Assembly (NCBI GenBank): GCA_026991395.1
Contig: JALXBP010000135.1
Location: 1-37,676 of the forward strand
DNA: 37,676 bases
Source of the DNA: Anaerolineae bacterium
Lineage (GTDB): Bacteria > Chloroflexota > Anaerolineae > B4-G1 > SLSP01
Direction of reading: 5' to 3'
Shown here: positions 3,373 through 29,015 of the stretch, piece after piece
Layout: each line of letters begins with the position of its first letter
Position numbering within the stretch: position 1 is the first letter of the stretch
Notes under the pieces: generated by a model
Database searches by the model: none
What the model was told of the DNA's origin: nothing
What the model saw: only the letters and a program-made list of their open reading frames with translations
Program-made: the position numbers and the translations under genes

Positions 3373-4342
3373 CCTGCTCGCCGAAGAACTGGCCGAGGTG
3401 GATCACCTGCTGCTGGGGGTCCACCGCCTGCAGGAGGGGGTCTCCCCCCTCATCCGCGAGGCGCTCGGCAGACTGGTGATGAGCGGAGGGAAGCGCCTGC
3501 GTCCGGCGCTGGCCCTCCTTTCGACGTACCTCTACGGTGAGGCGCTGCCGCCGCAGGCCTATCCGGTCGCCGCCTCGCTGGAGATGCTGCACACGGCGAC
3601 GCTGATCCACGACGATCTCCTCGATCACGCCGAGGTGCGCCGCGGCCATCGCACGCTCAACACGCGGTGGACGATGGGGGCGACGGTATTGGGCGGGGAC
3701 CTGGCCTTTTCGTGGGCCGCCAATCTGGTTGCCCAGGGCGACAACACGATGCTGGTGCGCCGCTTCGCCGAAACGTTGGGCACCATCTGCAACGGGGAGT
3801 TGAACCAGCTCTTCCACGGGCGGGGCAAGGTGCCCACGGTGGACGCTTACTACGCGCGTATCTTCGCCAAGACAGGGTCGCTTTTCCAACTGGCGATGGA
3901 GGTCGGCCCGTGGCTCCGCCGCCGCCCGCGGGAGGAGATACAGCGCCTGGGCGACTTCGGACGTTCGCTGGGGATCGCCTTTCAGATCGCCGACGATGTG
4001 CTCGATTTCATGGGCGACGAGGCCACCTTGGGCAAGCCGGTCGGCGGCGACTTGCGGCAGGGCCTGGTCACACTCCCCGTGCTCTACTACCTGGAAAGCC
4101 ATCCGCACGAGGCACACCTGCGGCACATCCTCGCGCAGGTAAAGGAGGGGCGCGCGCCGGACGAGGAGACGGTGCAAGCCCTCGTGCTCGACCTGCGGCA
4201 CTCCGACGCCGCCGAGCGGGCCATGGCGACGGCGGAGCAGCACATCGAAAAGGCGCTGGCGCAACTGGCGGCCTATCCCCCCTCGCCCTACCGCGCAGCC
4301 CTGGAGGAGATTGCCCGCTTCGCCGTGCGGCGGCGCTACTGA
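3344..4342 (+). CDS. Polyprenyl (trans-isoprenyl) diphosphate synthase
   Basis: GGKRLRPAL, LIHDDLLDHAEVRRG (FARM), IADDVLDFMGD (SARM), GKPVGGDLRQGLVTLP. Confidence 0.94.
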   Translation: MSQNGLRYRDLLAEELAEVDHLLLGVHRLQEGVSPLIREALGRLVMSGGKRLRPALALLSTYLYGEALPPQAYPVAASLEMLHTATLIHDDLLDHAEVRRGHRTLNTRWTMGATVLGGDLAFSWAANLVAQGDNTMLVRRFAETLGTICNGELNQLFHGRGKVPTVDAYYARIFAKTGSLFQLAMEVGPWLRRRPREEIQRLGDFGRSLGIAFQIADDVLDFMGDEATLGKPVGGDLRQGLVTLPVLYYLESHPHEAHLRHILAQVKEGRAPDEETVQALVLDLRHSDAAERAMATAEQHIEKALAQLAAYPPSPYRAALEEIARFAVRRRY

Positions 4343-4349
4343 GCGAGAG

Positions 4350-5309
4350 ATGGAGCCGCGCCTCTCGGTCGTCATCGTCTCCTGGAACGTGCGGGCGCTC
4401 CTGCAGCGGGCGATCGATTCGCTCTACGCCTCTTGGGAAGGGAGCGGCGCACAGCGCGACTCGCTCGAGGTCATCGTGGTGGACAACGGCTCGCACGACG
4501 GAACGGTCGCGATGGTGCGGGAGCGCTTCCCGCAGGTGCGCCTCGTCGCCAACAGGGAAAACCGCGGCTTCACCGGCGGGAACAATCAGGGCATTCGCCT
4601 GGCACGAGCGCCGTACCTCTTCCTCCTCAATCCCGACACGGCGATCATCGACGATGCCCCCGCAAGGCTCCTCGGCTACCTGGAGGCCCACCCACGGGTC
4701 GGCGTCGTCGGCCCCATGCTCCTCAACGCCGACGGCTCCATCCAGTCCTCCCGGCGGCGGTTCCCCACCCTCCCCGTCCTCTTCCTGGAAAGCACCTGGC
4801 TGCAGGGCCTGGCACGTCCCTGGCTGCGCCGCTACTACGTCGAGGATCGCCCGCCCGACGTCGTGCAGGAGGTGGACTGGGTTACGGGCGCGGCGATGAT
4901 GGTGCGGCGGGCGGCGCTCGATGAGGCAGGGCTTTTCGACGAGGGCTTCTTTATGTACTCGGAGGAGTTGGACCTCTGCCGACGCATTCGGGCCGCGGGC
5001 TGGACGATCGTCTACCTGCCGACGGCCCGCATCTACCACTACGTGGGCAAGAGCAGTGAACAGGTGGTCGCCGCGCGGCACATCCATTTCCAGACGAGCA
5101 AGGTGCGCTACGCCCGCAAGTACCACGGCGCAGCGGTCGCCGAGCTGCTGCGGCTCTGGCTGCTGGGACAGTACCTCTGGCAGATGGGGCTCGAGGGCAC
5201 GAAGCTGCTCCTGGGGCACCGCCCGGCCTTGCGTCGGGAACGGCTGCGGGCCTATCGGCAGGTCCTGGCCAGCGGCCTGCGCGGAGGTCGGCGTCCCCGC
5301 CCTCAGTAG
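4350..5309 (+). CDS. Glycosyltransferase family 2, rhamnosyltransferase-like
   Basis: LSVVIVSWNVRALLQRAIDSL, VVDNGSHDGT, NRGFTGGNNQGI, FLLNPDTAI, DEGFFMYSEELDLCRRI. Start moved from track 4311 to in-frame ATG 4350. Confidence 0.92.
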   Translation: MEPRLSVVIVSWNVRALLQRAIDSLYASWEGSGAQRDSLEVIVVDNGSHDGTVAMVRERFPQVRLVANRENRGFTGGNNQGIRLARAPYLFLLNPDTAIIDDAPARLLGYLEAHPRVGVVGPMLLNADGSIQSSRRRFPTLPVLFLESTWLQGLARPWLRRYYVEDRPPDVVQEVDWVTGAAMMVRRAALDEAGLFDEGFFMYSEELDLCRRIRAAGWTIVYLPTARIYHYVGKSSEQVVAARHIHFQTSKVRYARKYHGAAVAELLRLWLLGQYLWQMGLEGTKLLLGHRPALRRERLRAYRQVLASGLRGGRRPRPQ

Positions 5310-6031
5310 AGGAAGGGGATGAACATCCTGACCCGCTTCCTGTAAGCCTCCCATTGCGCCCCGTAGTGCTCTGCGGCCCAGCGCTCGTTCTTCGGGATGG
5401 CGTCGAAGCGATACTGCAGGAAGTTCACGAGCGGTGCTATCCAGCCCCACAGGCTGCCGCCGATGAGCGCGAAGGCGATGTAGATGAGGAAATCGCCGAA
5501 ATAGTTCGGATGACGGCACAGCCCCCAGAAGCCCGTTGTGAGGAGTTTGCCCTTCGTACCGGGGCGGCCCTTGAAGCGCTGCTTCTGGTAGTCACTACCG
5601 AAGTGGATCACGGTGCCCACGATGTAGACGAGTACCGCCAGGCCATCCATCAGGCTCAGCGGTGCAGTCCTTCGAGCGCCGAAGTAGAAGGGGAGACAAT
5701 AGGCCCATCCCACCGCGTTCGTGAGCAGAACGGCCATCAGCAGCTTTTGCGCGGGAGGCAGACGGGTGTCGATCTTCCCAATGGCGGTCTGTCGGCTCTT
5801 GAAGAGCAGGAGCCAATTCATATGCGCGGCGTAGAGCAGGACCATCGCCAGCATAATGAGGTGCCGCGCTCGCACGGGTGGTGCGGTAAAGATGTACAGC
5901 GCAGCGACGACCACCATCGTGTTGAAGCCAACCGCAAAGGCGATGTGCGTGCGTCGGGTGATGAGGATACCGAGCACGCCCACGAGGGCCATAGCTTCGA
6001 TGACGAGCGCGGCCAACGCCCACACGTGCAT
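5303..6031 (-). CDS. Isoprenylcysteine carboxyl methyltransferase / DUF1295-like integral membrane protein
   Basis: TTGFWGLCRHPNYFGDFLIYIAFAL and C-terminal ERWAAEHYGAQWEAYRKRVRMFIPFLY. Start MHVWALAALVIEAM at 6031 with SD GGAGGT; upstream part of the track ORF is non-coding-like. Confidence 0.8.
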   Translation of the reverse strand: MHVWALAALVIEAMALVGVLGILITRRTHIAFAVGFNTMVVVAALYIFTAPPVRARHLIMLAMVLLYAAHMNWLLLFKSRQTAIGKIDTRLPPAQKLLMAVLLTNAVGWAYCLPFYFGARRTAPLSLMDGLAVLVYIVGTVIHFGSDYQKQRFKGRPGTKGKLLTTGFWGLCRHPNYFGDFLIYIAFALIGGSLWGWIAPLVNFLQYRFDAIPKNERWAAEHYGAQWEAYRKRVRMFIPFLY

Positions 6032-7931: not shown

Positions 7932-10163
7932 CTATGCCTTGCGCAGACCGCGCAGGATGCGTTCCGCGTTGAAAGGGAAGGCGTCGAACCACCGCCCCGT
8001 CGCCTGACGCAGGGCGTGGTGGATGGCCGGGGCGACGGGGATGAAGGGCATCTCGCCCATCCCGCGTGCGCCCCACGGGCCGTTCGGCTCCTCGTTCTCG
8101 ACGATGATCACCTCCACCTCGTCGGGGATGTCGGCGACGGTGGGGATGAGGTAGGTGCTGTAGGTCGTCGTCAGCGGACGCCCGCCCTTCTGGATGAAGT
8201 GCTCGGTCGTCGCCCAGCCGACGGCCTGGACGACGCCGCCTTCGATCTGGCCGCTGACCAGGCGCGGGTTGATCGCCTGTCCCACGTCGTTGGCGCAGAC
8301 GATGCGCCGCACGTGGACTTCGCCGCTCACCAGGTCGGTCTCCACCTCGGCGGCGATGGCGACGTAGCCGTAGGAGAAGTTGGGGTCGCCGTAGCCCGTC
8401 TGCGGGTCGATCGGCGTCGTCTTCGGCGCGAGATAGACGTACTCGGCCCTAGCGGGGCGTTCCTCCGCCCGCCACTTCTCCAGCGCCGCCGCTGCCGCGC
8501 CTCGGATGGCGTTGCCGATCATAAAGGTCATCCGCGAGGCGGAGACGGAGCCGGAACTGCCGGTGATGGCCGTATCCATCGCCTCTAAGCGCACCTTCTC
8601 GATGGGGACGGCCAGCGCCTCCGCCGCCATCTGCCGGATGACGGTGCGCGTCCCCTGGCCGACCTCGGCGCTGGCGGCATAGACGATCGCCTCCTCGATC
8701 TCGGCCTCGCCGTGCAGTTCGATGGCCGCCCAGGCGTTCTCCTGGTAGCCGAAGGAGAAGCCGACGTTCTTGAAGCCCGCCGCGATGCCGAAGCCGCGCC
8801 GCTTGCTCCCCTCGCCGCCGCCCGGCGGGGCGATCCAGCCCTGTTCGCTCCGCTTCCAGCCGATGGCCTCCGCCGCTTTGATGAGCGTCTCCTCGATGCC
8901 GCGTGCGTCGTCCGGCAGCGGGCGTCCCCAGGGCATCGGATCGCCACCGTGGACGAGGTTGCGCAGGCGGAACTCGACCGGGTCCATCCCCAGCGCCTCG
9001 GCCAGCTTGTTCACCTGCGTCTCGGCGATGAAGTTGCCCTGCGGCGCGCCGAATCCACGGAAGGCCCCGCCGGGGATGTTGTTCGTGTAGGCGGCGAGGA
9101 CGTCGGTCTTCACGTTGGGGATGCGGTAGGGGCCGTTGACGGTCAGCAGCAGGTTGCCCATCACCTTGTTCGTCGTGTAGACGTAGGCCCCCGCATCGGC
9201 GATGACCTTCGTCTCGGCGGCGATCAGTCGCCCGTCCTTCGTCGCCGCCCACTTGGCGTGGACGAAGGCGCGGTGCCGCTTGTGGTGGCCGAAGATGGAC
9301 TCCTCGCGGCTCCAGACGATCTTCACCGGACGCTTCAGCTTCCAGGCGGCCAGCGCCAGGACGATCTGCACCGAGATGTCCTCGCGCCCGCCGAAAGCGC
9401 CGCCGATGGTCGAGTAGAGGATGCGCACCTGCTCCTCCGGCAGGCCGAGCGCGTGCGCCACCTGATGGCGCTCCTCGTGCGCCCACTGCCCGCCCGCGAG
9501 CACGGCGACGCGCCCCTCCTCGTCGAGGAAGGCCAGCCCCGCCTCCGGCTGGAGGTAGGCATGCTCCTGCCCCGGAATCTCGTAGTCCGCCTCGACGATG
9601 ACGTCGGCCTGGGCGAAGGCGGCCTCCACGTCGCCGCGGCGGATACGGTGCCGCGAGACGAGGTTCCCCTCGAAGACCAGTTCCGGATGGATGGCGATCG
9701 GCGCGTGGGGCGGGTGGAGGTGAGGGGCTTCGGGCTCGAGCGCCTCGCGCGGATCGTCGATGACCGGCAGGTCCTCGAAGGTGATCTTGAGCCGCTTCAC
9801 GCCCTCTTCGGCGGCGGCCTCCGTCTCCGCGACGACGGCGGCGATCTGATCGCCGACGAAGCGCACGATGTCGGCCCCCGGTCGATCGCTGCCGGGGCCG
9901 CAGAGGACGGGCTGGTCGGGATACTGCAGGCCGTACTCGTTGACCGGCACATCGGCGGCGGTGAAGACGGCGACGACGCCGGGGACGGCCAGCGCCTCCG
10001 CCGTCTCGATGCTCAGGACGCGGGCGTGCGGACGCTCGGCGAAGCGCAGCTTCATATAGAGCTGCCCCTCCATATTCAAATCCTGCGGGTAGCGTGCCTC
10101 GCCGGTAACCTTCTCGCGTGCATCGATGCGGGGTAGCGGTTGTCCTACGTAGTTGCCTTTCAT
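7932..10163 (-). CDS. Xanthine dehydrogenase family, molybdopterin-binding subunit
   Basis: YVGQPLPRIDAREKVTGEARYPQDL, GGAFGGRED, GAFRGFGAPQGNF, GSSGSVSASRMTF, GQIEGGVVQAVGWATTEHF, GARGMGEMPF. Confidence 0.94.
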   Translation of the reverse strand: MKGNYVGQPLPRIDAREKVTGEARYPQDLNMEGQLYMKLRFAERPHARVLSIETAEALAVPGVVAVFTAADVPVNEYGLQYPDQPVLCGPGSDRPGADIVRFVGDQIAAVVAETEAAAEEGVKRLKITFEDLPVIDDPREALEPEAPHLHPPHAPIAIHPELVFEGNLVSRHRIRRGDVEAAFAQADVIVEADYEIPGQEHAYLQPEAGLAFLDEEGRVAVLAGGQWAHEERHQVAHALGLPEEQVRILYSTIGGAFGGREDISVQIVLALAAWKLKRPVKIVWSREESIFGHHKRHRAFVHAKWAATKDGRLIAAETKVIADAGAYVYTTNKVMGNLLLTVNGPYRIPNVKTDVLAAYTNNIPGGAFRGFGAPQGNFIAETQVNKLAEALGMDPVEFRLRNLVHGGDPMPWGRPLPDDARGIEETLIKAAEAIGWKRSEQGWIAPPGGGEGSKRRGFGIAAGFKNVGFSFGYQENAWAAIELHGEAEIEEAIVYAASAEVGQGTRTVIRQMAAEALAVPIEKVRLEAMDTAITGSSGSVSASRMTFMIGNAIRGAAAAALEKWRAEERPARAEYVYLAPKTTPIDPQTGYGDPNFSYGYVAIAAEVETDLVSGEVHVRRIVCANDVGQAINPRLVSGQIEGGVVQAVGWATTEHFIQKGGRPLTTTYSTYLIPTVADIPDEVEVIIVENEEPNGPWGARGMGEMPFIPVAPAIHHALRQATGRWFDAFPFNAERILRGLRKA

Positions 10164-10174
10164 AAGCGACTCCT

Positions 10175-11974
10175 TTATGACTGGACTTGGGCGGCGTGGC
10201 GACCGCCGTTGTTGATGCCTTCGCCGATGAGCGGCTCGCGCGGGCTGGCGACGACGCCCGTTTCCACGCCGATGATGCGGCGCAGAACGGCGATGGTCGC
10301 CGCGTAGGTCGGGTCCATGCCGTAGTAGGAGAGGTTGCGCGAGCCGAGGTTCCGCCCCTTGCTCATCGGCGTATCGGAAGCGTAGTGGAGGATGCCAATC
10401 TCGAAGGGGACGGGGTAGAGATTGACCAGTTCGTTGGTCGGGTAGCGGCGCGGGCGGATGAACTCGTAGAGCGCCGAAAGGTACGGCCCGGCTTCCATCT
10501 CCACGTCGGTGTAGCCGCGTTCGAGGAAGCCGCGCATATACTCGTCGTTCTGGAGGAAGGTGCCGCGCACCGTCAGCGCCCGCTGATTGTCGAGGACATC
10601 GCCGTAGACGAGGTGCGGGCGGACGTGGGCCGCCTTGAAGACGTTGCCGAAGAGGTAGGTGTTGCGGGAATGCTCATCGTAGACGACGTTGGGGATGAGG
10701 ACATCGCCGATGCGGGCGTTGAGCGTCGCCGCCTTGCCGATGATGTAGGCACCGAGCAACTGCCCCACGTTGACGGCGAGCCGCGTCAGCAGGTGGTAGG
10801 CGGCGAAACCGAGGGGGTAATCGATGTTGAGGATGATCGCCTCGCTGCGGGTCAGGGCCTCCAGCGGCAGGTCGCGCAGCCGGGGGTCTATCGCCTCGCG
10901 GCGCAGCCGTTTCAACTCGATGAGCTGCACCTCCAGATCGAAGGTGTGCTGGCTGGGGATGCGGGTGATGCCGTGTTCGGCCTCCCACTGCGCCCGCGCT
11001 GCCAAGAGATCGCGACCGTCCTCCGTCTGCAGGTACTTCTTCAGCAGGTAGTAGAGGAAGTTGTTGCGATCGCTGGGCGTATCCCCCCGCTGGATGCGCC
11101 GATACTCCTCCTTGATCTGCGGCGGCGCTTGATGACGCAGGTAGTCGAGCAGCCGATCCTCGTGCGCCTGCGCGAAGCCGCTGAGCATATTGACCAGGCT
11201 GTGGGTGTTGCTGGAGACGAAGTAGAGCGGGCGCTCGCGGAGATCGAAGGGGGCCATCTCGCTGACACGGTTCCACCAGCGCTGGGTCGCGCGTCGATAA
11301 TCGATGTGGGAACCGGCGAGGAGCGTAACGCTCATTCGCTTGCGCCTCTGCGCGATTTGCAGGAGAAGCTGCGGAAGCCGCGCCTTCCAGATACGGCGCA
11401 GGCGCTGCCAATCGTCGGGGGAGAGGTGGAGCGTTTCGCGAATCTCCTCTTCCGTCTCGACAGGAATCTCGCCATTGGTCGCCCAGAGTGTCAGCAGTTC
11501 CAGCATCCCCTCCTTGCCGGAAAGGAGCCGGTGCATCTTGTTCCACTCGATCTGGAAGGCGGTGAGCGTGGGCACGAGGTCATCCACATCGGAGATGCTG
11601 GCGATGTAGGCGGCGAGGATGCCTTCCCGCTCGTCGAAGCGCATCCGGCGACGGCGGGCCGGTGCGGCCACCCGCTCCCACGCCTCCACGCCGGGATAGC
11701 CGCGGCGGCGGAAAACCTCCTCGCTCTGGCCGAGAATGACCTTCCTCACCTGCGGGATGCAGGGCGGAAGGCGGAGACTGGCGTAGGTGAAGGCGGACAT
11801 ATCCGGTTCGATGGCCCCGGCGTGGGGATGGAGCGAGGAGTGCATCGCGATGTGCGTCTCCTCCAGCGTGCGGATCTGCACCTCGCTCGTCGTGCGCAGG
11901 AGCGAGTAGATGGTGCGCATATAGAGCGCGATCGCGTCATCGGGTGGACGTGGAATGCTGCGTTTCATCTCCAC
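10175..11974 (-). CDS. Uncharacterised 599-aa protein inside the xanthine dehydrogenase-type operon
   Basis: Long ORF in operon register (7-bp gap upstream, 11-bp gap downstream); GTG at 11974 or ATG at 11968. C-terminal part GKAATLNARIGDVLIPNVVYDEHSR...GYTDVEMEAGPYLSALYEF. Confidence 0.9.
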   Translation of the reverse strand: MEMKRSIPRPPDDAIALYMRTIYSLLRTTSEVQIRTLEETHIAMHSSLHPHAGAIEPDMSAFTYASLRLPPCIPQVRKVILGQSEEVFRRRGYPGVEAWERVAAPARRRRMRFDEREGILAAYIASISDVDDLVPTLTAFQIEWNKMHRLLSGKEGMLELLTLWATNGEIPVETEEEIRETLHLSPDDWQRLRRIWKARLPQLLLQIAQRRKRMSVTLLAGSHIDYRRATQRWWNRVSEMAPFDLRERPLYFVSSNTHSLVNMLSGFAQAHEDRLLDYLRHQAPPQIKEEYRRIQRGDTPSDRNNFLYYLLKKYLQTEDGRDLLAARAQWEAEHGITRIPSQHTFDLEVQLIELKRLRREAIDPRLRDLPLEALTRSEAIILNIDYPLGFAAYHLLTRLAVNVGQLLGAYIIGKAATLNARIGDVLIPNVVYDEHSRNTYLFGNVFKAAHVRPHLVYGDVLDNQRALTVRGTFLQNDEYMRGFLERGYTDVEMEAGPYLSALYEFIRPRRYPTNELVNLYPVPFEIGILHYASDTPMSKGRNLGSRNLSYYGMDPTYAATIAVLRRIIGVETGVVASPREPLIGEGINNGGRHAAQVQS

Positions 11975-11981
11975 CTGGCCC

Positions 11982-13415
11982 CTACACCTCGCCCAGCTTC
12001 GAAGCCGCCTTCTCCACCGCCTTGATGATCTTGTAGTAGCCGGTGCAGCGGCAGAGGTTACCGCTGAGCGCTGTGACGATCTGCTCGCGCGTCGGATGGG
12101 GCCGCTCTTCCAGGAGGTTGGCGGCGCTCATCACGAAGCCGGGGGTGCAGAAGCCGCACTGGACGGCGTCCTCCTCGACGAAGGCTTCCTGCACCGGATG
12201 GAGCGTGCCGCCCTTCGCCAGCCCCTCCACGGTCACAACGTTCGCCCCGTGGGCGCGGGGTGCGGGGACGAGGCAGGAGAGCACCGCCGCCCCGTCGAGC
12301 CAGACGGTACAGGCCCCGCACTCGCCCTCCTCGCAGCCGGGCTTGGCCCCCATCAGGCCGAGGTCGTCGCGCAGCATATGGAGCAGCGTCTTGCCGTTCG
12401 CGCCGCGCACGGTTACGTTCTCGCCGTTGACGACGAACTGGATCGGCTCATCGCCGTCGGTGTGGTGGGCGATCGTCGGGCCGGAGAGGGTCGGACGGAT
12501 GCGGTGCCCGCCCTGGAGCAGCACCATCGCCTCCGGTTGGGGCAGGTCGCGGCGGGGATGGCCTTCGCGGATGGCCTCCAGCCCCTTGCGCACCAGCGCC
12601 TCCACCTCCTGCTTGCGCAGCCAGGCGGAGCCGCGCACATCGTCGATGGGACGGGCCTCCTCGGCGGCCAGTGCGGCGGCCTGTGCGATGATCTCGTCGG
12701 TGAGCGGCTGCCCCTTCAAGGCCCCCTCGGCCTTCGGGGCGCGGATGATGGTCGGGGCGACGCTGCCCATCGTGATGCGGGCCGCCTTGACCGTCGTCCC
12801 CTCCATCGTCAGCACCATCGCCACGTTGGTGACGGCGATGGCGAGCACCTTGCGCAGTCCCATCTTCAGGTAGGTGCCGGCCTCGTCGGCGGTCAGCGGG
12901 GGGATGGCGATGTCGGTGAGGATTTCGTCCTCCTCCATCACCGTGCGCCGCACGCCGAGGTAGAAGTCGGCCAGCGGGATGGTGCGCTCGCCGCGCACGC
13001 TGCGCAGCGTCAGGCGGGCATCGAGCGCCATCAGCGCGGTGATGGTGTCGTTGGCGGGCGAGGCGGTGATCAGGTTCCCGGCGACGGTGCCCCGATTGCG
13101 CAACGCGGGTGCGCCCACGCCCCAGCAGGCCTGGGCCAGCGGCAGCGCCTTCTCCTGGATGAGCGGGGAGGCGGCGACGGCGGCGTGCGTGGCCATCGGC
13201 CCGATGTGGATGAGGCCGTCCTCTCCCAGCGCGATGCGATCCAGCCCGCGCACGCGGGTGATGTCGATGAGGACGGGGACCTTGCGCCCGTGGCGCAGCT
13301 CAAGCACCAGGTCGGTGCCTCCGGCAACGATGCGGGCCTTGCCGCGGTTTTCCGCCAGCAGGCGCAGCCCATCCTCCAGTGATGTAACGGTGTAGTAGGT
13401 TTGCCATAACGCCAT
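11982..13415 (-). CDS. Xanthine dehydrogenase family fusion: FAD-binding (CoxM-like) + [2Fe-2S] (CoxS-like)
   Basis: N-term KARIVAGGTDLVLELRHG...NRGTVAGNLITASPANDT; C-term CEEGECGACTVWLDG...VQCGFCTPGFVMSAANLL...GNLCRCTGYYKII; SD AAGGAG. Confidence 0.94.
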   Translation of the reverse strand: MALWQTYYTVTSLEDGLRLLAENRGKARIVAGGTDLVLELRHGRKVPVLIDITRVRGLDRIALGEDGLIHIGPMATHAAVAASPLIQEKALPLAQACWGVGAPALRNRGTVAGNLITASPANDTITALMALDARLTLRSVRGERTIPLADFYLGVRRTVMEEDEILTDIAIPPLTADEAGTYLKMGLRKVLAIAVTNVAMVLTMEGTTVKAARITMGSVAPTIIRAPKAEGALKGQPLTDEIIAQAAALAAEEARPIDDVRGSAWLRKQEVEALVRKGLEAIREGHPRRDLPQPEAMVLLQGGHRIRPTLSGPTIAHHTDGDEPIQFVVNGENVTVRGANGKTLLHMLRDDLGLMGAKPGCEEGECGACTVWLDGAAVLSCLVPAPRAHGANVVTVEGLAKGGTLHPVQEAFVEEDAVQCGFCTPGFVMSAANLLEERPHPTREQIVTALSGNLCRCTGYYKIIKAVEKAASKLGEV

Positions 13416-13478: not shown

Positions 13479-14384
13479 CTACGCACGCCTTTCGCGTATG
13501 ATGTAGAGAGGCCGCCCGCGGGCTTCGTCGTAGATGCGGCCCACGTACTCACCGAGGATACCCAGCATCCAAAGCTGGATGCCGCCGAGGAAGAGGGATA
13601 CCGTCGTCGATTCCCTCTCCTCCCGCCGCCCGAAGAGCAGGCGCAGCAAGGCCGCCACGACGGCAAAGGTGCCGAGCAGCAGGGAAAGCTTCAGCGGGAC
13701 GAGGGAGAAGCCGGTGATGGCATCCAGCGCCAGGCGGAACATCTTGCGGAAGGGGTATTTCGTCTCCCCGGCGGCGCGGGCGCGACGGCGGTAGGGGACG
13801 CCGATCTGCCGGAAGCCGACCCAGGCGACCATCGCCCGCACGAAGCGGTGCCGTTCGCGCATCCGCCGCATCACCTCGATGACCTGCCGATCGAGGAGGC
13901 GAAAATCCCCGGCCTCCATCGGAATGGTGATCTCGGTGAGCATCTGGATCAGCTTGTAGAAGAGATCGGCGGTGAAGAGCTTGAACCAGGTCTCGCCCTC
14001 GCGCTCGGTGCGCACGCCGTAGACGACATCGTAGCCCTCTCGCCACTTGGCGATCAGGTCGGGAATGACCTCCGGCGGGTCCTGGAGGTCCGTGTCGATG
14101 ACGACGACGGCGTCGCCGCGGGCGTGGTCCATTCCGGCGGTGATGGCCAGTTGGTGGCCGAAGTTGCGCGAAAAATGGAGCACGACGACGTGCTCCGGAT
14201 CGTCCGCTTCCAGCCGATCCAGGATGGCGGGGGTGGCATCGGTGCTCCCGTCATCGACGAGGACAAGCTCCCACGGCTCCCCCAGCCCCTCCATCACGGC
14301 GCGGACGCGCTCACAGAATGCCTCAATCAGGGCCTCTTCGTTGAAGACCGGTCCAACGACCGAGTAACGTGGACGATCGCCCAT
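13479..14384 (-). CDS. Glycosyltransferase family 2, GtrB/ArnC/DPM1-like membrane protein
   Basis: SVVGPVFNEEALIEAFCERV, VLVDDGSTDAT, FGHQLAITAGMDHARGDAVVVIDTDLQDPPEVI, then two hydrophobic helices near the C-terminus. Confidence 0.93.
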   Translation of the reverse strand: MGDRPRYSVVGPVFNEEALIEAFCERVRAVMEGLGEPWELVLVDDGSTDATPAILDRLEADDPEHVVVLHFSRNFGHQLAITAGMDHARGDAVVVIDTDLQDPPEVIPDLIAKWREGYDVVYGVRTEREGETWFKLFTADLFYKLIQMLTEITIPMEAGDFRLLDRQVIEVMRRMRERHRFVRAMVAWVGFRQIGVPYRRRARAAGETKYPFRKMFRLALDAITGFSLVPLKLSLLLGTFAVVAALLRLLFGRREERESTTVSLFLGGIQLWMLGILGEYVGRIYDEARGRPLYIIRERRA

Positions 14385-14965: not shown

Positions 14966-17900
14966 TCACCGTCCTGCGGTAAAGACAAGCGGGCCGAAAG
15001 CATTGTTGTCCTCATTGCTTTCCCGCACCGCGGCCCAGGGAGCAGGTGCCCCCCAGGAATCCACGAAAGCCCACACGCTATGGCTCCCCGCCTGCCATTG
15101 CTCCGGCCATCGACTATCGTCGGCGCGATAGTAAGCATCACCGAAGGTAAGCGTCAGCTCCTCTCCGGCGTCCAGGCGGGGAATGAACCACGAAAGTCCA
15201 TAGACAGAAACGGATTCCCACGCCGTATTGACCACAGGCGGGCGGCTTGGGTCCAGATAGAGATCGACCCAGAAATTCGTAGCCGTCGCCACCCCGTCAT
15301 TGCTCACCGTTACCGAGAGCCGCTGCGGATCATCAGCATCGATGACGAGATTCCGCACACGGAGATCGGGCATATATCCGAAGTCGCGCGTGAGCACAGG
15401 CAGATAGAGGCTCTTGACGACACGTCGCACGTTCAGACGGAAGGGACCTGCGGCCTCACCGCTGACGACGGCATGGCTGAAGTCATCGAAGAAAGTCCCC
15501 CAACTGTTCTCGATAGCCGTCATCTTCCCTACGTAGCGAGTCCCCTCGGTGACAGGGATGCTCTCCTCCTCCCACGCCCCTTCAGGCTCGACGTAGAGCA
15601 CGATCTCGAACTGCCGCCAAGCAGCCGGAGCCAGGTCTCCGAGCGACCACGTCAATTCACGTCCCTCTAAAGAACTCCACGGCGGGATTGCCTCCGTCGC
15701 CGTAACGCCTTCCGGCAGTGTCAGGGTAACCGTGACATCGCGGGCGATAGCATCCCCCGCATTGTACGCCGTAACGCGAATCAGCACCTCCGAAGGGCCG
15801 TAGGTAGGGATGTAGCATTCCCCATCAACGGCCAGGACATCCGCCGTAGCCGACTGCGGGGATTCACCCCACCCCCCTTCACAGAAGTAATCCACCCAGA
15901 TGGCCGCTCCATGAGCTTCCACCGTAACCTTGTTCCCCGATGCCGCCCATTGCACCCCGAAGGGGTCGGTATAGCGAATGCCCGGCCCCTCATTGACGAT
16001 GTTGGGGCCATGATGGGCACGTGAGATCGTCGCCAGGGCGGCGACGGCCTGCTGCGGGGCCAGGGTCCTCGCCTCCGATGGCAGTTCGAAGGTAACCACC
16101 CCATTCGCATCCTCGACGAACGGAATGGTCGGCACCATCGTCGTGAAAAGCGCCGCAAGCGTATCGGAATCAGGATGGGCCGCATCCACCTCCGCCGCTT
16201 GCTGAAGAGCCTGCAGCAGCGCCGCATCGGTGATCCAGGTGGCAGAACGCAGGTGTACATTGGAGGGAAGGCGATCGGTGAGCACGAGACCGGTCGCAGG
16301 GGCAGAGAGATAGGCGGGGACCTCGTCTCCTTCCCCTACCATCGCCAGATGGAGCGGGGGAACGTCATAGCCGTGAGGAAGGTTATCGGCAGCCACCGTA
16401 ATCGGAATCTCGATGATCCGATTCCAAAGCTCGGACGGCAGATCGTCGCCGACCTCTAACTCGAAATACCAGAGGCTACGCCATCCATCGGGGACCGTCT
16501 CTCGATTGAGGAAGGCCAACTCGGCCCAGATCGGCTCCGGTGCAGTCGCAGGATCGGTGTAGAGCAGGGTCGCCGTCATCCCTCGAGGAAGCTGAAGCGA
16601 AGGCACAAGCCCCGTGAGCGTTATGCCGGTGTTGTTTTCCAGCGCAAGCCGAACGAGCGTCCGCTCGCCTGCGTGCAGGTAACTATGGAAAAGCTGCTTC
16701 TCCCGATGGCCGCCGACATACACCGACCACACCAGATCACCATAACCCCATGCCTTGAAGAAGGGATCGTAACGCGATATCCACTGACGCGGCTCATAGG
16801 GATCGCGCATCGTGTAGATAAAGGCCAGCGTATCGCTGTACACACTGACCGCCGTCGGCCCTCCCCATTTCTCGACCTCCCCATCGCTGCGATAGCCCTC
16901 CACAACGTGGGTATGTCCATCGTAGATCTCATACCGATTCGGCCCCGCAACTACCTGATGATAGATCAGCTGCGGACCGTCATCGAGCTTGAACTGCCCT
17001 TCGCGATTATCCTCCTCGTTCTCGACGGTCGCCGTCAAGACAAAGCTGTTACTCGTGCCCAACGGGATACGCAGATGAAAGAGCAGCTCATCGCGGTCAG
17101 GATAGGTGGTCACACTGACCAAACTCGCGTAACCCGGCGTCAGAGGGCTGTAAGCACGGCTCCAGCTTCCCTGCCAGGGAGCAAGACGAATACCCAGCCC
17201 GCGGAAGATGGGGAAGAGCAGCAGGTTCTCGTCCGGATCGATCGTCCTGCCCTCGCCGTTGGGATCGGCGCTGTAAGTCTTGGCAAGGTAACGCACGATG
17301 ATGCTCTCCGGCCACCGCGTGGGGAGATCATTGACCCGCCGCTCGCAGAAACCATCGCCATCCATATCGACCCAGATGCCGAAGGTTACGTTGACCCCGG
17401 CATGCTGCTCGAAATCGGGCGAGCAGGTCGCACAGCTATCCCAATCCCACACATCGTAGAAGGTAGCCCGCAAAGGCATCGTGTGCGTCCGCGACCAAAC
17501 ATCCCGGTACGTCAGGCGCGAGGGAGAAGGGGCAGCAGGCGCATAGGGCGTCGCCGCCTCCAGGTACTCCCGGAAGGGGACGGCCTCCGTCCCCGCCGCC
17601 ACGTAGATCGAACCGGCCTGGTTGGGAAGAACGACAGTCCCCTCGCGGGGCGTGCCCTCGAAGACCACCTCCCGCCCCAACAGTTCACGGGAGTGGACGC
17701 CATAACGTATGAGCGGCTCGTCATACCAGTAGGGCGGCATCTCGCCCAAGTGCCACACCAGCGGCCAGCAGGGCAGAAGGAGCACGTGATCATCGGTTAC
17801 GGTGAGAACATCGGTGTAGGTCGGCGGAATGGTGATGAAGGAGCCATAATCGGTCATCGGCGCAGTGGCACGCAGGGGCAATTCCGTATGGATACCGTAG

Positions 17901-19720
17901 GTGCTCGTGAAACGGCACCAGTGGCGCTCGTCAGGCGGCAAAGCCCGCCAATCCTCAATGGTGATCGTCTGCGTCGGTGCAACCGCCCCGTCCCACAGCG
18001 GATAGTTGCCCGACTGCCAATAGTTGCCCGACTGCCAAAGGTAGGGTTCATTACGCACCCAGATCGTCTCACCATCGTTGGTGGAAAGGATGACGTGCTG
18101 ATCGGCGTAATCCACGATGGGGGCGATGAGATAGACCCAGTCGGTCAAGACCGGCGAGAGGGCCGCCGTCTCCTCCTTGTTCTCCAGCGGCATAGCGAGG
18201 TCGAGGTAGAGGCCCTCCTGCGGGATGCGATAATGACGATCAGGTTCGAGGTCGCGATCGCCGACCAGCCGCGCCGCCATGCGTGAAGTCAGGCGGAAGG
18301 GCTTGTGGCGCGTCAGCACGGGACGACCCGCCTCCTCACGGTAGAAGACTCCCTGCGCGAAGACCGCCTCACCGGAGGCGAGCGTCTCCGGCTCCGTCTC
18401 CGCCCGGAAATCGAGCGTGATGCCGACGTGAGCGGAAAGCGTCCCTATCACCCAGACAAGCTGCGTCGAGCCGTCGGGTGCGGTGAAGATGACCGTCGGC
18501 GAAGGGACAACGGTCGTTGTGAGCAGACGATAGCCGGGGGCAATCGTTTCCGTGACCACCGCATTGTGCAGCGGGGCATCCCAGAGGTTGCGGAGATGCA
18601 ACGTTGCACTGACGGGCACCACCTCATAGGCGGGGAACTCGTGGGAGGGATAGACCGGGTTGAATGTCTGCACCGCATCGCCGTAAAAATCGACGTGGCT
18701 GCTCAAAGCCATCATCAGAGCATCGAGGAAGATGGGGGCCTCATCGCGATGACGTTCATCGGTAGGATGACCAAAGACGGCCACGACCTCGCCGCGACCA
18801 TATGGCTGCCGGATGATGGCAGGCAGCGCCGTCCCGTCCCTGGTATTGACAAAGGTTGCGATGACCTCGGTCGATTCATCGGGGTAGAAGAGAGGATCGT
18901 CCAGGACGTACAATGTCGTCGTGACCCAGCTATAGGCCATCGGCGAGTCCGCCTGCTCGATGCGCAGACGCCCGCGGTTCTCGAAGGCATCCTCGGGCTG
19001 CAGGTAGTCGAGGATCGACTGCGTGGTATCCACGCTCCCCTCGGGCAGCAGTCCCGCCCGCTCGGCCAGGCCCGCCGCCGTCCCCTGTACATAGAGCGTC
19101 CCCCCTTCTTCCACGAAACGGCGCAGGGCCTCCAGCCCACCCGCCTCCTCCAGGCGGGCTATGACCTCCTCCTGAGCATCGAGGCGGTAGGCCGGGAGGA
19201 TCAACAGCGCATCATTCTCCAGGCCGGAGACGACGGTCGTCTCCGTGAGCACCTCGTAAGGCAACGCGCCGCCGAGATAGCCGTCGAGGAGTTGTCGTAT
19301 CGAGGCAAGCTCCCAGCCTGCCACCACCTCCCCTTCCTCATACGGGACCCGCACACTCGAACGGAAGACGGCTACGCCGTCCCCGTAGAGCGCATAGGCC
19401 CGCGTCGGCACCTCCCCCACCGTCGAGGTCAGGCTCGTACACCGGGCACAACTCCACGGCTCCCCCTCGGGGACGATGAGATCGCCGGGGAGGGCCTCCG
19501 TCGTCGTCACGGCAGACCGCCAAAGCCGCCCACCTTCCGCCAGGTGGCGGAATGCACTTTGGTAAGCCGCCTGTCGATCGAGCTGATTGCGCCCCAGAGG
19601 AACCAGCGTGCCGCCCACGCCCGCACGCATCGGCGTCGCCTGCAGGCTCCGATGGATGCCCAGCGCAGCCACGATCAACAACACCGCTACAGCTACCAAC
19701 CGAGTGATCCTCTGCATCAT
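14966..19720 (-). CDS. Large secreted multidomain protein (DUF11-like repeats, CARDB-like C-terminus)
   Basis: Start MMQRITRLVAVAVLLIVAALGI (signal peptide) at 19720 preceded by AAAGGGGG; DUF11-like segments (TLTLPEGVTATEAIPPW...LTWSLGDLAP); CARDB-like PDLRVRNLVIDADDPQRLSVTVSNDGVATATNFWVDLYLD...VRESNEDNNAF. Confidence 0.88.
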   Translation of the reverse strand: MMQRITRLVAVAVLLIVAALGIHRSLQATPMRAGVGGTLVPLGRNQLDRQAAYQSAFRHLAEGGRLWRSAVTTTEALPGDLIVPEGEPWSCARCTSLTSTVGEVPTRAYALYGDGVAVFRSSVRVPYEEGEVVAGWELASIRQLLDGYLGGALPYEVLTETTVVSGLENDALLILPAYRLDAQEEVIARLEEAGGLEALRRFVEEGGTLYVQGTAAGLAERAGLLPEGSVDTTQSILDYLQPEDAFENRGRLRIEQADSPMAYSWVTTTLYVLDDPLFYPDESTEVIATFVNTRDGTALPAIIRQPYGRGEVVAVFGHPTDERHRDEAPIFLDALMMALSSHVDFYGDAVQTFNPVYPSHEFPAYEVVPVSATLHLRNLWDAPLHNAVVTETIAPGYRLLTTTVVPSPTVIFTAPDGSTQLVWVIGTLSAHVGITLDFRAETEPETLASGEAVFAQGVFYREEAGRPVLTRHKPFRLTSRMAARLVGDRDLEPDRHYRIPQEGLYLDLAMPLENKEETAALSPVLTDWVYLIAPIVDYADQHVILSTNDGETIWVRNEPYLWQSGNYWQSGNYPLWDGAVAPTQTITIEDWRALPPDERHWCRFTSTYGIHTELPLRATAPMTDYGSFITIPPTYTDVLTVTDDHVLLLPCWPLVWHLGEMPPYWYDEPLIRYGVHSRELLGREVVFEGTPREGTVVLPNQAGSIYVAAGTEAVPFREYLEAATPYAPAAPSPSRLTYRDVWSRTHTMPLRATFYDVWDWDSCATCSPDFEQHAGVNVTFGIWVDMDGDGFCERRVNDLPTRWPESIIVRYLAKTYSADPNGEGRTIDPDENLLLFPIFRGLGIRLAPWQGSWSRAYSPLTPGYASLVSVTTYPDRDELLFHLRIPLGTSNSFVLTATVENEEDNREGQFKLDDGPQLIYHQVVAGPNRYEIYDGHTHVVEGYRSDGEVEKWGGPTAVSVYSDTLAFIYTMRDPYEPRQWISRYDPFFKAWGYGDLVWSVYVGGHREKQLFHSYLHAGERTLVRLALENNTGITLTGLVPSLQLPRGMTATLLYTDPATAPEPIWAELAFLNRETVPDGWRSLWYFELEVGDDLPSELWNRIIEIPITVAADNLPHGYDVPPLHLAMVGEGDEVPAYLSAPATGLVLTDRLPSNVHLRSATWITDAALLQALQQAAEVDAAHPDSDTLAALFTTMVPTIPFVEDANGVVTFELPSEARTLAPQQAVAALATISRAHHGPNIVNEGPGIRYTDPFGVQWAASGNKVTVEAHGAAIWVDYFCEGGWGESPQSATADVLAVDGECYIPTYGPSEVLIRVTAYNAGDAIARDVTVTLTLPEGVTATEAIPPWSSLEGRELTWSLGDLAPAAWRQFEIVLYVEPEGAWEEESIPVTEGTRYVGKMTAIENSWGTFFDDFSHAVVSGEAAGPFRLNVRRVVKSLYLPVLTRDFGYMPDLRVRNLVIDADDPQRLSVTVSNDGVATATNFWVDLYLDPSRPPVVNTAWESVSVYGLSWFIPRLDAGEELTLTFGDAYYRADDSRWPEQWQAGSHSVWAFVDSWGAPAPWAAVRESNEDNNAFGPLVFTAGR
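18003..18038. repeat. 18-bp perfect tandem duplication inside the large secreted CDS
   Basis: TAGTTGCCCGACTGCCAA twice in tandem; encodes WQSGNYWQSGNY. Confidence 0.9.
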
Positions 19721-19838
19721 TCGCCCCCTTTGCTCTATGGCAGTCCGGCGCTCTCGCCGTCGATGAACGCACCTCGGCCATCGGCAAGCCGCCCAAGGCC
19801 CGAGCCGTCGTCCCGGCCCGCCGGTAGCGAATCGCAAA

Positions 19839-19898
19839 TTCCCTTTGAGGGAAACGGCCTTAGCCTTCAAGGCTACGGGCATTTCCCTTGAAGGCTAA
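19839..19898. repeat. Compound palindromic intergenic element
   Basis: Perfect 13-bp inverted repeat TTAGCCTTCAAGG (19860-19872) / CCTTGAAGGCTAA (19886-19898) plus TTCCCT-ttg-AGGGAA (19839-19853). Confidence 0.8.
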
Positions 19899-21135: not shown

Positions 21136-24100
21136 CTACGGACCATACCACTTATTAGATAGATAAAGGTTGGTTCCTTCTACTGACCAATGCTTGAAGT
21201 CGCTATCAGATTTTGCTTTATCCATCATCCGTTGGTAGATATCGGAACCATGCCCAAAGTATAAAGCTTCAGGAAATTGGTCCGGCTCACATCCGTTGAG
21301 AATGCCTCGTGCAATGTCCAATGCCTCAAACCAACTCTGCCTGTCCGGGCTTTCCCAGCCTAGTCCTGCTTGCCCCTTCTTGTGAACTAGGTAGTCCTCT
21401 GTTACGTCTTTCGTCTTCCACTCCTCGTATCCTTGGAATTGATGGGGTTGATCTAATACTCCTTGGATTGTATTCGGGAAATCACTAGAATCACGGCGGT
21501 GGACAATGACATATCCTATTGCCCTCATAGCCCTTCTCCTAGCATCTCGATTGCTGTTTTTTCCTCTCTGTTCGGCCCATATAGCCTTAGCCAGCATGAT
21601 CTCTTGAGGAGAATACTGCCTCTGGCGTTCTCTGGCATAGGCATTCGCTTCCTTCCAATAAGATGGCCAGTCGATTTTCCCCTGATTCAAAACATATCCA
21701 GGGTCACCATCTCCCGAGTAATATCCGCATCTGTCTCCATTGTCAGGCGTCGGCGTTTTTTCCTCTCCATATCCTTGTGCTCCATCACCCGATTGGTTCG
21801 GCGATGGAGTTGATGAGGATGAAGATGAGGATGTGGATGTGGAAGTGGAACCAAGTCCCGGCGTCGGTTCTATCGAAGTTGGTGTCTCTTCAGGCGTGTA
21901 ATTGTTGCCACCATTATCACACCCAGCAAGAACGGCCATTATCAAAATTACCATCGTTAGAGATACGATCAGTAATATACGAGAACGCTTCCTCCTCTTT
22001 CCTGTAACAACCACTGTCATTTGTAACAACGGTAATAGCCCCATCAGCAAGCCGATAGGATCAGTCAGCGGTATTGGGCGGTTTTGGTGCCTGGTTGACC
22101 AATACGCGCCTCGCACCGGATCATAGTATCCCCAAGGCGACGAATAAAGCCCTGCCTCTACATCATACCCCAGACCAACATAAGCAAAGAACTGCAACTC
22201 CCAATTGGCTACTAACGGGAAGCCATACTCATCATACAAGTATGGCCTAACCAGGTCGCCGTTTTCGTCCGCCAAGCCTGCCACACTATCGGAGCCATCA
22301 TATTCGTACCAGTAGCGGTCGCCGGCAAAGCCGGTGGCCGGGTTGGGCAGCCGCTCCATCTCGAAGGGGCGGCGCAGGCCGGTCAGCGGCGAGGGAGCCA
22401 GGTAGTAGTAGGTCTCCGTTACCGTGCCGCTCACCGCCAACTGCGCCCCGATGATGTCGAGGCCGTCGTAGAGGTAGGTGATGACCTGCGTGAGCGTGAT
22501 GCCGCCGGGGTAGGCGACCGCTTTGCGGACGCGCCGCCCGTAGCCGTCGTAGGTGTAGGTGGCGACCATCGTCACGGTGATGGCCGCGCTGTCGCTCATC
22601 GTCTTGGTCACGCCCACCAAACGATCCTCGCGGTCATAGAGGTAATCGGTGAGCAAGGTCGTGCCGTTGGTCAAGATTTCGGTCTCGCGCACCCGGTCGC
22701 CGTTCCCGTTGTAGTCCAGCGCGGTCTCGCGGTCCGGCTCCTGGATGCGGATCAACTGGTTGGCCGCGTTGTAGGTGTAAGCCACCGCCTCCGGGCGCGG
22801 GGCGACGGGCAGTTCGGGCAGGCCGGGGTCGGGGGCCAGTACCGTGCCCGTCTTGGTCAGCCGGTTGCCCACGGCGTCGAAGGTGTAGGCGGTATCGCTC
22901 GCCGGGTCCTCGGTGGCGGCGTTGACCAACCGGTCCAGAGCGTCATATTGGTAAGTGTGGGTGATGACGACGGGCGTCGGGCTGCCGTCGAAGGCGGCGC
23001 GGGTCTCGATCACTTGGGTGCGGTTGCCCACCTTGTCCATCGCATAGGCGTAGGCACTTTGGGGATGGGCCGCGCCCAGTTTGCGGTGGTCAATCCCGGT
23101 CAGCCGGCCTGCGTCGTCGTAGGTGTAGGTGGAGGCGACGTCGTTGGGGCGCAAGATGCGCGTCACCTGGCCCAGCGGGTTGTACTCGAAGGTGCTGGCG
23201 TCGCCGTGGGGGTCGGTGAAGGTGGTGAGCCAGTCGTTGGCGTTGTAGGCGTAGGCGACGGCGTAGCCGTTGGGGTAGGTCAGGCCGGTCAGGTTGCCCA
23301 GCGCGTCGTAGGTGCGGGTGATGGTGCGCCCCAGCCAGTCGGTGGTCGTCGTGCGGCGGCCCAGGGCGTCATAGGTGTAGGTCGTGCAGCCCAGGCCGTC
23401 GCACATCTGGAGTTCGTTCCCCTCCAGGTCGTAGGTGAAGGTGACGGGGTGCAGGGTCGGCGGGGTGGAGCCGTAGCGGACGGCGGTCAGGCGGTCGTTG
23501 CTGTCGTACTCGTAGTAAGTGGCCCGCCACATCGCGTCCACGCGGCGGATCAGCCGTCCCGCCGCGTCGTAGGCGTAGGACCATTGCTTCCCCAGGGGAT
23601 TGACCTCGCGCTTGAGTTGATTGAGGAAATTGTACGCAAAAGTAGTCGCGCTCCCGTTGGCGTCGGTGATGACCGTCAGGTTGCCCACCTCGTCGTAACC
23701 GTAGCGGGTCGTGCCGCTGAGAGGGTCGGTGACGGCGATGAGGCGGCCCAGGGCATCGTAGTCGTACCCCGTCGTGTGGCCGTTGGCGTCGGTGACGGCG
23801 ATGACGCGCCCCAGGGCGTCGCGGGCGTACTCGGTGGCATTGCCCAGCGGGTCGGTCGTTTTGAGCAGGCGGCCCAGCGGGTCGTAGTCGTAGGTGGTGG
23901 CCTTACCCTGCGCGTTGACCTGCCGCACCAGGTTGTAGACGGCGTCATACTCCATCGTCGTGGTGTAGCCCAGCGCGTCGGTGAACTGCACCGGCAGGCC
24001 GGCCAGGTTGTAGGTCGTGGCGACGGTGTGGCCGTTGGCGTCGGTGACGGCCACCGGGGTGTCCTCGGCGTCGTAGGTGTAACGGGTGACGCCCCCCAGA

Positions 24101-27100
24101 GGATCGGTGATGGTTACAGCGTTGTCGTTCTCGTCGTAGGTGAAGGTGGTGGCAAAGCCGTTGGGCGAGGTGATGACCACCGTATTGCCCACGGCGTCAT
24201 AGGCGTACTGGGTCGTGGGCCGCTGGCCGTCGGGGAGGATGGGCTGCATCACGGCGGTCAGCCGGTCCAAGGCATCATAGGCGTAGTCGGTGCGGTGGCC
24301 CAGCGGGTCCACCTGAGCGGTGCGGTTGCCCACGGCGTCGTACTCGTAGCGGGTGACGTTGCCCAGCGGGTCCTTGACCGCCACCAGGCGGCCCAGGGCG
24401 TCGTAGGTGTAGTCGGTCACCTCGCCGCGCGGGCCGATGATGCGCACCAGTTGATCCTCGGCGTTGTAGCAGTACTCGGTGCGGTGGCCTGCCGCGTCAA
24501 TGAGGTACTTGAGCCGGTTGGCGGCGTCGTAGATCATCCGCGTGCGGTAGCCCAGGGGGTCTATCGTGGCGACGACGTTGCCGTTGGCGTCGTACTCGTA
24601 GCGGGTGACGGCGCCGGTGGGCTCGGTGACGGCGAGCAGCCGTCCGGCGTCGTCGTACTCGTAGCGGGTAACGTGCCCGGCGGCGCCGGTCATCGCCACG
24701 CGACGGTAGAGTTGGTCATAGGTGTAGTGCGTCCAGTGACCCAGAGGATCGCGCTCGCCGGTCAGTTTGAGGTTGGCGTCGTATTGGTAGAGCCGCTCTC
24801 CGCCCCGTCGGTCAACGGAGCGCACCAGCAGGTCGTTCAGGTCGTACTCGAAGGTAGAGACGTGCCCCTTGGGGTCGGTGATGCGGGTGATGTTACCCCG
24901 GTCGTCATACTCGAAGGTGACGGTGTGGCCGTTGGCGTCGGTGTAGGTGGTCTCCCGCCCGGCGGCGTCGTAGGTGGAGCGGGACTCGGTGCCGTCGGGG
25001 TAGATGGTGCGCACCAAGTTGCCATAGTCATCGTACTCGTAACGGGTGGCATGCCCCAGGGCGTCGGTGATGACGGTCGGCTGGCCCCAGGCGTTGTACG
25101 CGGCCTGCGTCTCCGAGCCGTCCGGGGCGACGGCGCGGGTCAGGTTGCCGTGTTCGTCGTACTCGTAGTGCCAGGTGTGGCCCAGCGCGTCGGTCATCGA
25201 AATGACCTGATTGTGCGTGTCATAAGTCCAGCGGGTGACGTCGCTGGTGTAAGTCGCCCCGGCGGGGATGGGGTCGTAGCGGGCGGTGACGTTGCCCCGC
25301 TCGTCGTACTCGTAGCGGGTGACGTTCCCGTTGGCGTCGGTGCGGCTGGTGAGGTTGTAGTCGGCGTCGTACTCGTTGTGGACGGTGTTGCCCGCCGCGT
25401 CCTGCTCCTGCGTCACGCGGTTCAGTTCGTCCCAGTGATAGACCTCCTGGTGGCCCAGGTTGTCGGTGAAGGTGGTGATGCGGTTGGCCGGGTCGTAGGC
25501 GAAATAACTGTGCGTGCCGCTGGCGTCAATCTGCTCGACCACGCGGTCCCGGTCGTCATAGGTGTTCTGGAGGAAAAGGAACCCCTCGCCGTCCCACTCT
25601 TTGGTCATCCGGTGACGGCTGTCGTACTGGAAGCGGCGCAACGTGTCGGAAGCGAGAGCGATGCGGGTCAGGTTGCCGTCGCCGTCGTACTCGAAGGTGT
25701 AGGTGCGGCCATCCCACAAGGCCATGCGCGTGATGCGGCTGTTCTCGTCGCTCGTCAGAGTGATCGTGCGGCCGGCGTCGTCGTGAATGGCGGTCAGCGG
25801 CGGGCGGGGAACATCCTCGCCGTCCTGCCAGTTGTCCTGGCCGCTGAGGTCGTAATCGAAGTGCAGCCCGTTGCCCCGGCGGTCGCGCTGCTCGGTCAGG
25901 ATGCCGAAACCGCCCACCGTCCGGCTGAAGACCAGCGTCACCTCATCCGGCGTAGTCCACTCCCAGCCCTGGTCGGTGAGGGTCAGGCGGTCGTAGACAC
26001 CGGCCGGGGCGTCGTAGCCGCTGCCGTTCCAGGTGTAATGATAAGTGCGCCCGTCGGCCAGGGCGATGCTCACCGAGTCGTCGCTGTACTGCTGAGCGCG
26101 GGCATTGTAGGGGAAGGACCAGCCGTAGCCGAAGAGGTCGCTGCGCCAGTCCTGGGAGTTGTAGGTCAGCGTCAGGTCGAAGTCCAGCCCGCCGCGGCCG
26201 GGGATGCGGGCCAGGCGCACCTGGACGACGTGGTTGCCGGTCGAGAAACTGACCGGGTCGCCGCCGTAACGCTGATAATTCTGATAGCCCAAGTCGCGCA
26301 GTTTACGCAGAACCTCCGGCGACGGAGGGTCGGGGATGGGAGGCGGTTGGTTGTCCTCGCCGCAGGTCAGGCCCAGTTCGGTCAGGCGGTTGGCGATGGC
26401 CGCGTAGGTGGCGTCCACGACGAGGTCAAAGTGGGTGTGGATAACCGGCCAGTCATAGTTGTGATCTAAGAAGAGGGTCTCGATGTGGGCATAGTGAGGG
26501 GCGACGTTGTAAAACTCTGCATACGGCAATAGGGGATGTGAACCACCCCAGCGATGAGGACGGCTCGTGTAAGTAGTGATAGCGCTAAAGAACTTGTTGA
26601 CGAGGGCAACATCGTTAGAGCGGTGATTATGGTCACGAGCCCAAGCCCATAGTCCACCGTCGTTCCTCACGCCCCACGGATGTCCACGAAGGGCGTTAAA
26701 GGCCAAAGTAACAAACATATCGGCGCCAAAATTACGCGCCCGCCGAGCACGGGAAGAACGAGGGACATACCCCTGCCTTTGCGAGGCATTACGGGTAATG
26801 AGAATATCCACGTGGCAGTTGTTGTCTATGAATCGCTGGCGGACATCTCTGGCCAAGCGGTAAGCGTAAGGGCCTTCCCACACCGTCCCCACACCGGGCC
26901 AATAGGCCCGTCCAACGTTATCGTCAGGGTCCAAGGCCAGTTTCATATTCTGAGCCGCTGCCATCGACAGAGAAGCCTCAGAAAGCTGGGGACGGGAGGC
27001 CAGCGGGGCCATCGGGACGAATTGCCCGACCTCCTCGTTCTCCGCCACGATCATCTGTTGTTCACCATAGTTCGCACCGGTCGGGAGCCAATCCTCGCTC

Positions 27101-28967: not shown

Positions 28968-29015
28968 TTGGATAAGGCGATCCTATCGCCTATCCCATTG
29001 CAGAAGGAGGGGAAA

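Follow-up and report, generated by a model that had tools for sequence, protein, structure and literature searches.

The combination of predicted fold, invariant pocket residues and recurrent gene neighborhoods suggests that the DUF6909 proteins are probably two-domain, AMP-nucleosidase-like enzymes of the nucleoside phosphorylase/nucleosidase (PNP/UP) superfamily, which cleave a purine nucleoside or nucleoside 5'-monophosphate (NMP) and pass the freed base to an adjacent purine enzyme. The description of these proteins as PNP-superfamily enzymes that possess an intact sugar/base pocket and are encoded repeatedly beside purine-base genes is well supported by computation. For the protein discussed here, we infer that the neighboring enzyme fed by its product is a xanthine dehydrogenase (XDH). 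Pfam assigns no function to DUF6909 (PF21850), and a literature search found no paper naming this family. The present analysis offers a testable function for a Pfam family of unknown function that is found in approximately one third of the sampled Chloroflexota genomes.

Gene, operon and family

The window, i.e., the whole 37,676-nt stretch of an Anaerolineae contig that was analyzed, encodes the DUF6909 protein, a predicted purine nucleosidase, on the minus strand (11974-10175), with 599 aa when read from a GTG start. The true start is more likely the in-frame ATG at 11968, two codons past the GTG, which would give 597 aa, because this ATG directly follows the Shine-Dalgarno-like AGGTGGAG and most matches of homologs to the protein begin at residue 3. 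As the earlier note had described, the gene is packed between two genes of XDH type on the same strand: that for the FAD-binding and 2Fe-2S fusion subunit (11982..13415; PF00941, PF03450, PF00111, PF01799), separated from it by 7 bp, and that for the molybdopterin (Mo) subunit with its MoCoBD Pfam match (7932..10163), which follows after 11 bp and whose ATG (10163) has its own AGGAG right behind the DUF6909 stop codon. Judging by this spacing, the three genes look like a single transcription unit. Upstream, also on the minus strand, lies a family 2 glycosyltransferase gene (13479..14384) that is kept in the nearest clade. The glnA gene, which the earlier note had taken to fit nitrogen assimilation, adjoins these genes in the window alone; no other locus of our first set has glnA nearby, and we therefore dropped it from the unit.

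The protein has a single full-length Pfam match, to PF21850 (DUF6909; E = 5.8e-224; 744.8 bits against a cut-off of 27), covering positions 1-534 of the 535 in the profile, and no match in NCBIfam. This full-length match, together with the recovery of 79 related loci and the presence of DUF6909 in 100 of the 301 Chloroflexota genomes sampled, indicates that the open reading frame is not a chance one. An antisense frame on the plus strand (10187-12025) was set aside, since the Pfam and homolog support belongs to the minus-strand frame. A divergent relative comes from Persicobacter: at 24-27% identity it is nevertheless recognized as DUF6909 (E = 1.5e-64) and retains 28 of the 45 invariant positions, among them the four active-site residues discussed below; N256, K414, E492-E494 and D534 are all present in it. 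Here and throughout, organism names of metagenome-assembled (MAG) contigs are those of the record titles, among which misbinned sequences are possible.

Predicted fold and domain architecture

An AlphaFold2 model of the whole protein, computed from 74 sequences (that of the window and those of 73 relatives, taken from genome contigs), reached a mean pLDDT of 90.5 and a pTM of 0.89. A Foldseek search of the PDB with this model yielded 337 matches at E <= 0.001, the best 50 of which are all AMP nucleosidases, methylthioadenosine (MTA)/SAH nucleosidases, PNPs, MTA phosphorylases or uridine phosphorylases; the leading match is AMP nucleosidase (E = 2.8e-6, prob 1.00). The target-normalized TM-scores are modest (0.33-0.64), owing to the large N-terminal domain and helical insertions of DUF6909. 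On the strength of the model, DUF6909 almost certainly adopts the PNP/UP fold. The assignment to this superfamily had been proposed earlier from two C-terminal motifs; both are present in the protein as quoted, their residues are invariant, and the fold search, the check that was to decide the matter, recovered the phosphorylase fold. The domain itself is larger than proposed: judging by secondary structure and the register of the motifs, it starts near residue 247 rather than 370, with the PNP/nucleosidase-fold domain spanning residues about 247-576 (10247..11236, minus strand).

The preceding alpha/beta domain (residues 1-246; 11237..11974, minus strand) attains a pLDDT of 90.4 when modeled alone and contains ten invariant residues, namely H49, R68, R107, R109, S126, D129, D132, E143, K146 and W233. 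A PDB fold search with these 246 residues gave nothing significant, the best match being a uridine phosphorylase (E = 0.29). All its weak matches above a probability of 0.1 are uridine phosphorylases or their relatives. These matches hint, but no more than hint, that the domain represents a degenerate second copy of the PNP-like fold; an hhalign comparison of the two halves of DUF6909 did not support this idea. A domain shared with AMP nucleosidase (Amn) was expected from the order of motifs, but Amn is not listed in the PDB search with the N-terminal domain.

At the sequence level, PDB searches returned nothing meaningful, PF01048 is not among the Pfam matches of the protein, where DUF6909 alone is listed, and phmmer, hmmsearch and hhalign gave no formally significant link to solved or named PNP families. 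The silence of hhalign says little about kinship with PNP, because the same program also fails to link PNP with AMP nucleosidase, which are known relatives; unguided, it sets DMES...SDKP opposite EMEA...SDTP, with a score that is not significant. In Smith-Waterman comparisons with 10 DUF6909 sequences, short Bacteroidota AMP nucleosidases scored above every one of 25 shuffles in 2-4 cases (Z up to 9.4), compared with none or one case for each of 12 control proteins, and an excess over shuffles was also seen with an MTA phosphorylase. These above-shuffle alignments pass through the correspondence of GKAATL...GD in DUF6909 with GKCGGL...GD. The pairwise similarity of Persicobacter DUF6909 to AMP nucleosidases is weak, with a best Z of 3.3 that is equaled by one unrelated control (hemH).

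The short Bacteroidota enzymes (L150 and L151, AMP nucleosidases by annotation only) resemble DUF6909 both in this GK-x-GG-L...GD motif and in DMET...SD-N/K-P, which is in register with EMEA...SDTP; in contrast, they comprise about 256 aa, lack an N-terminal domain and show no significant similarity in profile comparison. MTA/SAH nucleosidases and hexameric PNP/uridine phosphorylases share the fold and the VEME and SD motifs with DUF6909, but have Ser or Thr at the position of K414 and lack its large extra N-terminal domain and helical insertions. The closest parallel is with Amn (PDB 2guw, 7uwq, 1t8s), which is the top fold match, likewise combines an N-terminal domain with a C-terminal domain of the PNP fold, and shares the IGD and SD-x-P motifs; DUF6909 differs from it in the lack of a significant sequence match and of the AMNp_N domain (PF10423).

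Putative active site and reaction

In AMP nucleosidase, the base and sugar are contacted by N205, W383, M404, E405 and D428 and the phosphate by R381, K436 and, from the partner chain, H188 and Y189; across distant homologs, just M404, E405 and D428 are retained (PMC9584410). Our residue equivalences, which come from a manual alignment by motif order and not from superposed coordinates, match FVSSN256 with FTN205, EM493E494 with DM404E405, and ASD534TP with VSD428KP. Accordingly aligned, N256 (11207..11209) corresponds to N205, M493 and E494 of the E492-M493-E494 stretch (10493..10501) to the ribose-binding M404 and E405, and D534 of ASDTP (10373..10375) to the active-site aspartate D428, all on the minus strand; each of these four residues is identical in all 106 DUF6909 sequences compared. 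The position of R381 is taken by K/R465, basic in 105 of 106 sequences, and W383 has no equivalent in the motif alignment. G413-K414 (10733..10738, minus strand), within IIGKAATLNARIGD, matches the LGKCGGL...GD motif of Bacteroidota AMP nucleosidases, and K414 is a lysine in 105 of the 106 sequences.

With this pocket, DUF6909 quite likely cleaves a purine N-glycosidic bond. N256, M493 and E494 would hold the sugar of a purine nucleoside or NMP, D534 would protonate the leaving base, and the invariant basic residues would either contact the 5' group or hold the N-terminal domain in place; whether the substrate is a nucleotide or a nucleoside appears about evenly balanced. In our classification the family is AMP-nucleosidase-like in its working. 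We do not call it AMP nucleosidase, the enzyme that hydrolyzes AMP to adenine and ribose-5-phosphate, since it lacks the AMNp_N domain and its activity is predicted.

Phosphorylases of this fold bind phosphate through R87 and S90 in E. coli PNP and R91 in uridine phosphorylase. In the motif alignment, such an Arg/Ser pair is missing from DUF6909, in which the R87/S90 positions read I411/K414. Given the I411-I412-G413-K414 stretch, which lacks the phosphate-binding arginine, we consider hydrolysis reasonably likely. A phosphate-dependent phosphorylase, which would share the fold and the role in purine metabolism but yield ribose-1-phosphate and base or run in reverse for salvage, appears unlikely: phosphorylases are numerous among the leading fold matches, but the topmost, AMP and MTA/SAH nucleosidases, are hydrolases, and isoleucine stands where those enzymes have arginine.

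A further alternative is a nucleosidase whose substrate is a non-purine or cofactor nucleotide, e.g., a molybdopterin-linked nucleotide or a modified nucleoside. The N-terminal domain, which is large and strongly conserved and in which R68, R107, R109 and K146 are invariant, could hold a bulky anionic ligand, and in the neighboring Mo subunit the lack of an R880 equivalent leaves the operon's own substrate unsure; moreover, methyltransferase genes lie upstream of DUF6909 in Ktedonobacteria and Persicobacter. Nevertheless, those neighbors in the panel test described below that have recognizable small-molecule substrates act on purine bases or nucleosides, and we regard this alternative as improbable. 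The two methyltransferases are not detectably similar in sequence, so we rejected the notion of a common methyltransferase partner.

The neighboring molybdenum subunit

In bovine xanthine oxidase (XO) numbering, E802 and R880 are the purine-binding residues. The Mo subunit in the window possesses equivalents of Q767, E802, F914, F1009 and E1261, with Asn in place of R880. A few loci have a second Mo subunit that resembles E. coli XdhA; apart from these copies, the Mo subunits adjacent to DUF6909 keep Q767, E802, R912, F914 and Q1040 and, in all but a few cases, E1261. Their F1009 position is occupied by Phe or Tyr, and nearly all share the Asn. Because the active-site residues including E802 are kept while R880 is replaced, a purine-like substrate is plausible but not certain. 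The replacement suggests altered substrate specificity within the XDH group, and the window's Mo subunit scores below the cut-offs of the NCBIfam XDH equivalogs. The genome of the window organism encodes other Mo hydroxylases. It also has four ordinary PNP_UDP_1 genes besides DUF6909, which counts somewhat against the role proposed here.

Gene neighborhoods across the family

In the clade of the window, DUF6909 is flanked by the FAD/2Fe-2S and Mo genes or lies a short distance from them, and XDH genes occur near it in 42 of 118 regions, a count that includes some duplicate records. In a tree of 106 sequences, the XDH-linked members all group together (37 rows), in a single Anaerolineae clade; nearly all other Chloroflexota regions examined lack the sandwich. 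Hence the previously proposed link of the homologs to Mo hydroxylases stands for this one clade and fails for nearly all other Chloroflexota regions, several of which have other purine-base genes instead, and a family-wide XDH rule is ruled out, most of the tree having no adjoining XDH. This distribution also bears on the idea that DUF6909 is a non-enzymatic accessory or structural partner of XDH (in maturation, cofactor handling or as a third subunit) built on a PNP scaffold. That one clade consistently keeps it between the genes for the two XDH subunits fits that role, as does the adjacent YqeC/MocA fusion, a Mo-hydroxylase accessory gene, in one locus (L162), but XDH is not adjacent in most of the family tree and four invariant sugar/base residues would be unexpected in a scaffold, so we consider this role very improbable.

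Beyond the XDH-linked clade, several loci point to purine bases. In one (L163), HGPRT adjoins DUF6909 along with a divergently oriented adenosine-kinase-like gene; in another (L078, apparently the same contig as L165), the neighbor is adenine phosphoribosyltransferase (APRT). In L163 and L191, the divergent PfkB kinase upstream of DUF6909 is close to solved adenosine kinases such as 2pkf. The HGPRT, APRT and adenosine kinase neighbors would also fit nucleoside salvage by a phosphorylase, and an NMP nucleosidase beside a phosphoribosyltransferase would create a futile cycle. Purine permease genes lie upstream of DUF6909 in Armatimonadota, Myxococcota, Pseudomonadota and a Methanosaeta MAG (L066, L063, L072 and L079), and these permeases score best against the adenine-type E. 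coli AdeQ; in Desulfonatronum (L075), an adenine deaminase gene is located downstream.

We assessed this association with E. coli purine genes as the query panel, so that the queries were not picked from the neighbors themselves. Outside the XDH clade, the panel gave 7 matches within 600 bp of DUF6909 (80 kb of sequence) against 2 beyond 1.5 kb (569 kb), with about 0.3 near matches expected, compared with 4 near and 13 far for a control panel of 30 non-purine E. coli proteins. Four of the seven matches are permeases of one clade, and the number of independent cases is therefore smaller than seven. Many Chloroflexota loci have no purine neighbor, with glycogen phosphorylase, HAD hydrolases or tRNA synthetases being found instead. 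Taken together with XDH, the adenine permease, adenine deaminase, phosphoribosyltransferases and panel enrichment bear out the tie to purine-base metabolism that the earlier note had proposed.

Under the nucleosidase reading that we prefer, the freed base would go to the purine enzyme encoded next door, which would be XDH in the clade of the window and, in other lineages, adenine deaminase, purine phosphoribosyltransferases or an adenine transporter. With a nucleosidase-like gene embedded between XDH subunit genes, base release and oxidation could be coupled. Furthermore, AMNp_N was absent from 251 Chloroflexota genomes, such that DUF6909 might supply a missing step of purine breakdown or salvage, base release, in mostly uncultured bacteria in which no AMNp_N-type AMP nucleosidase was found. 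More tentatively, and less probably than the enzymatic assignment itself, the family could be a separate, unrecognized class of purine nucleotide/nucleoside hydrolases, spanning several bacterial phyla and an archaeal MAG, in which the new N-terminal domain completes the active site and which in one Chloroflexota clade forms a base-releasing and oxidizing module with XDH.

Upstream of the XDH-DUF6909 genes in one locus (L031, 61-6242) are genes for two OTCase-like carbamoyltransferases, a carbamate kinase and two PLP enzymes, possibly a catabolic cluster for purine nitrogen or one of the arginine type; L004 and L067 contain similar gene sets. In one Ardenticatenia group (L040, L049, L068 and L158), a Translin-like gene (PF01997, a weak match) is located directly upstream of DUF6909.

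Other genes in the window

Two minus-strand open reading frames without a Pfam match, of 483 aa (4068-5519) and 381 aa (1481-2626), may be antisense artefacts of high-GC sequence. The window also encodes a 2182-aa protein (21136-27684, minus strand) with 22 RHS repeats, DUF6531 and a C-terminal cell-wall hydrolase domain, and two very large proteins with DUF11/CARDB-type domains (28968-34451, plus strand; 14966-19882, minus strand), one of them with a proprotein-convertase P-domain, which are probably surface or secreted proteins.
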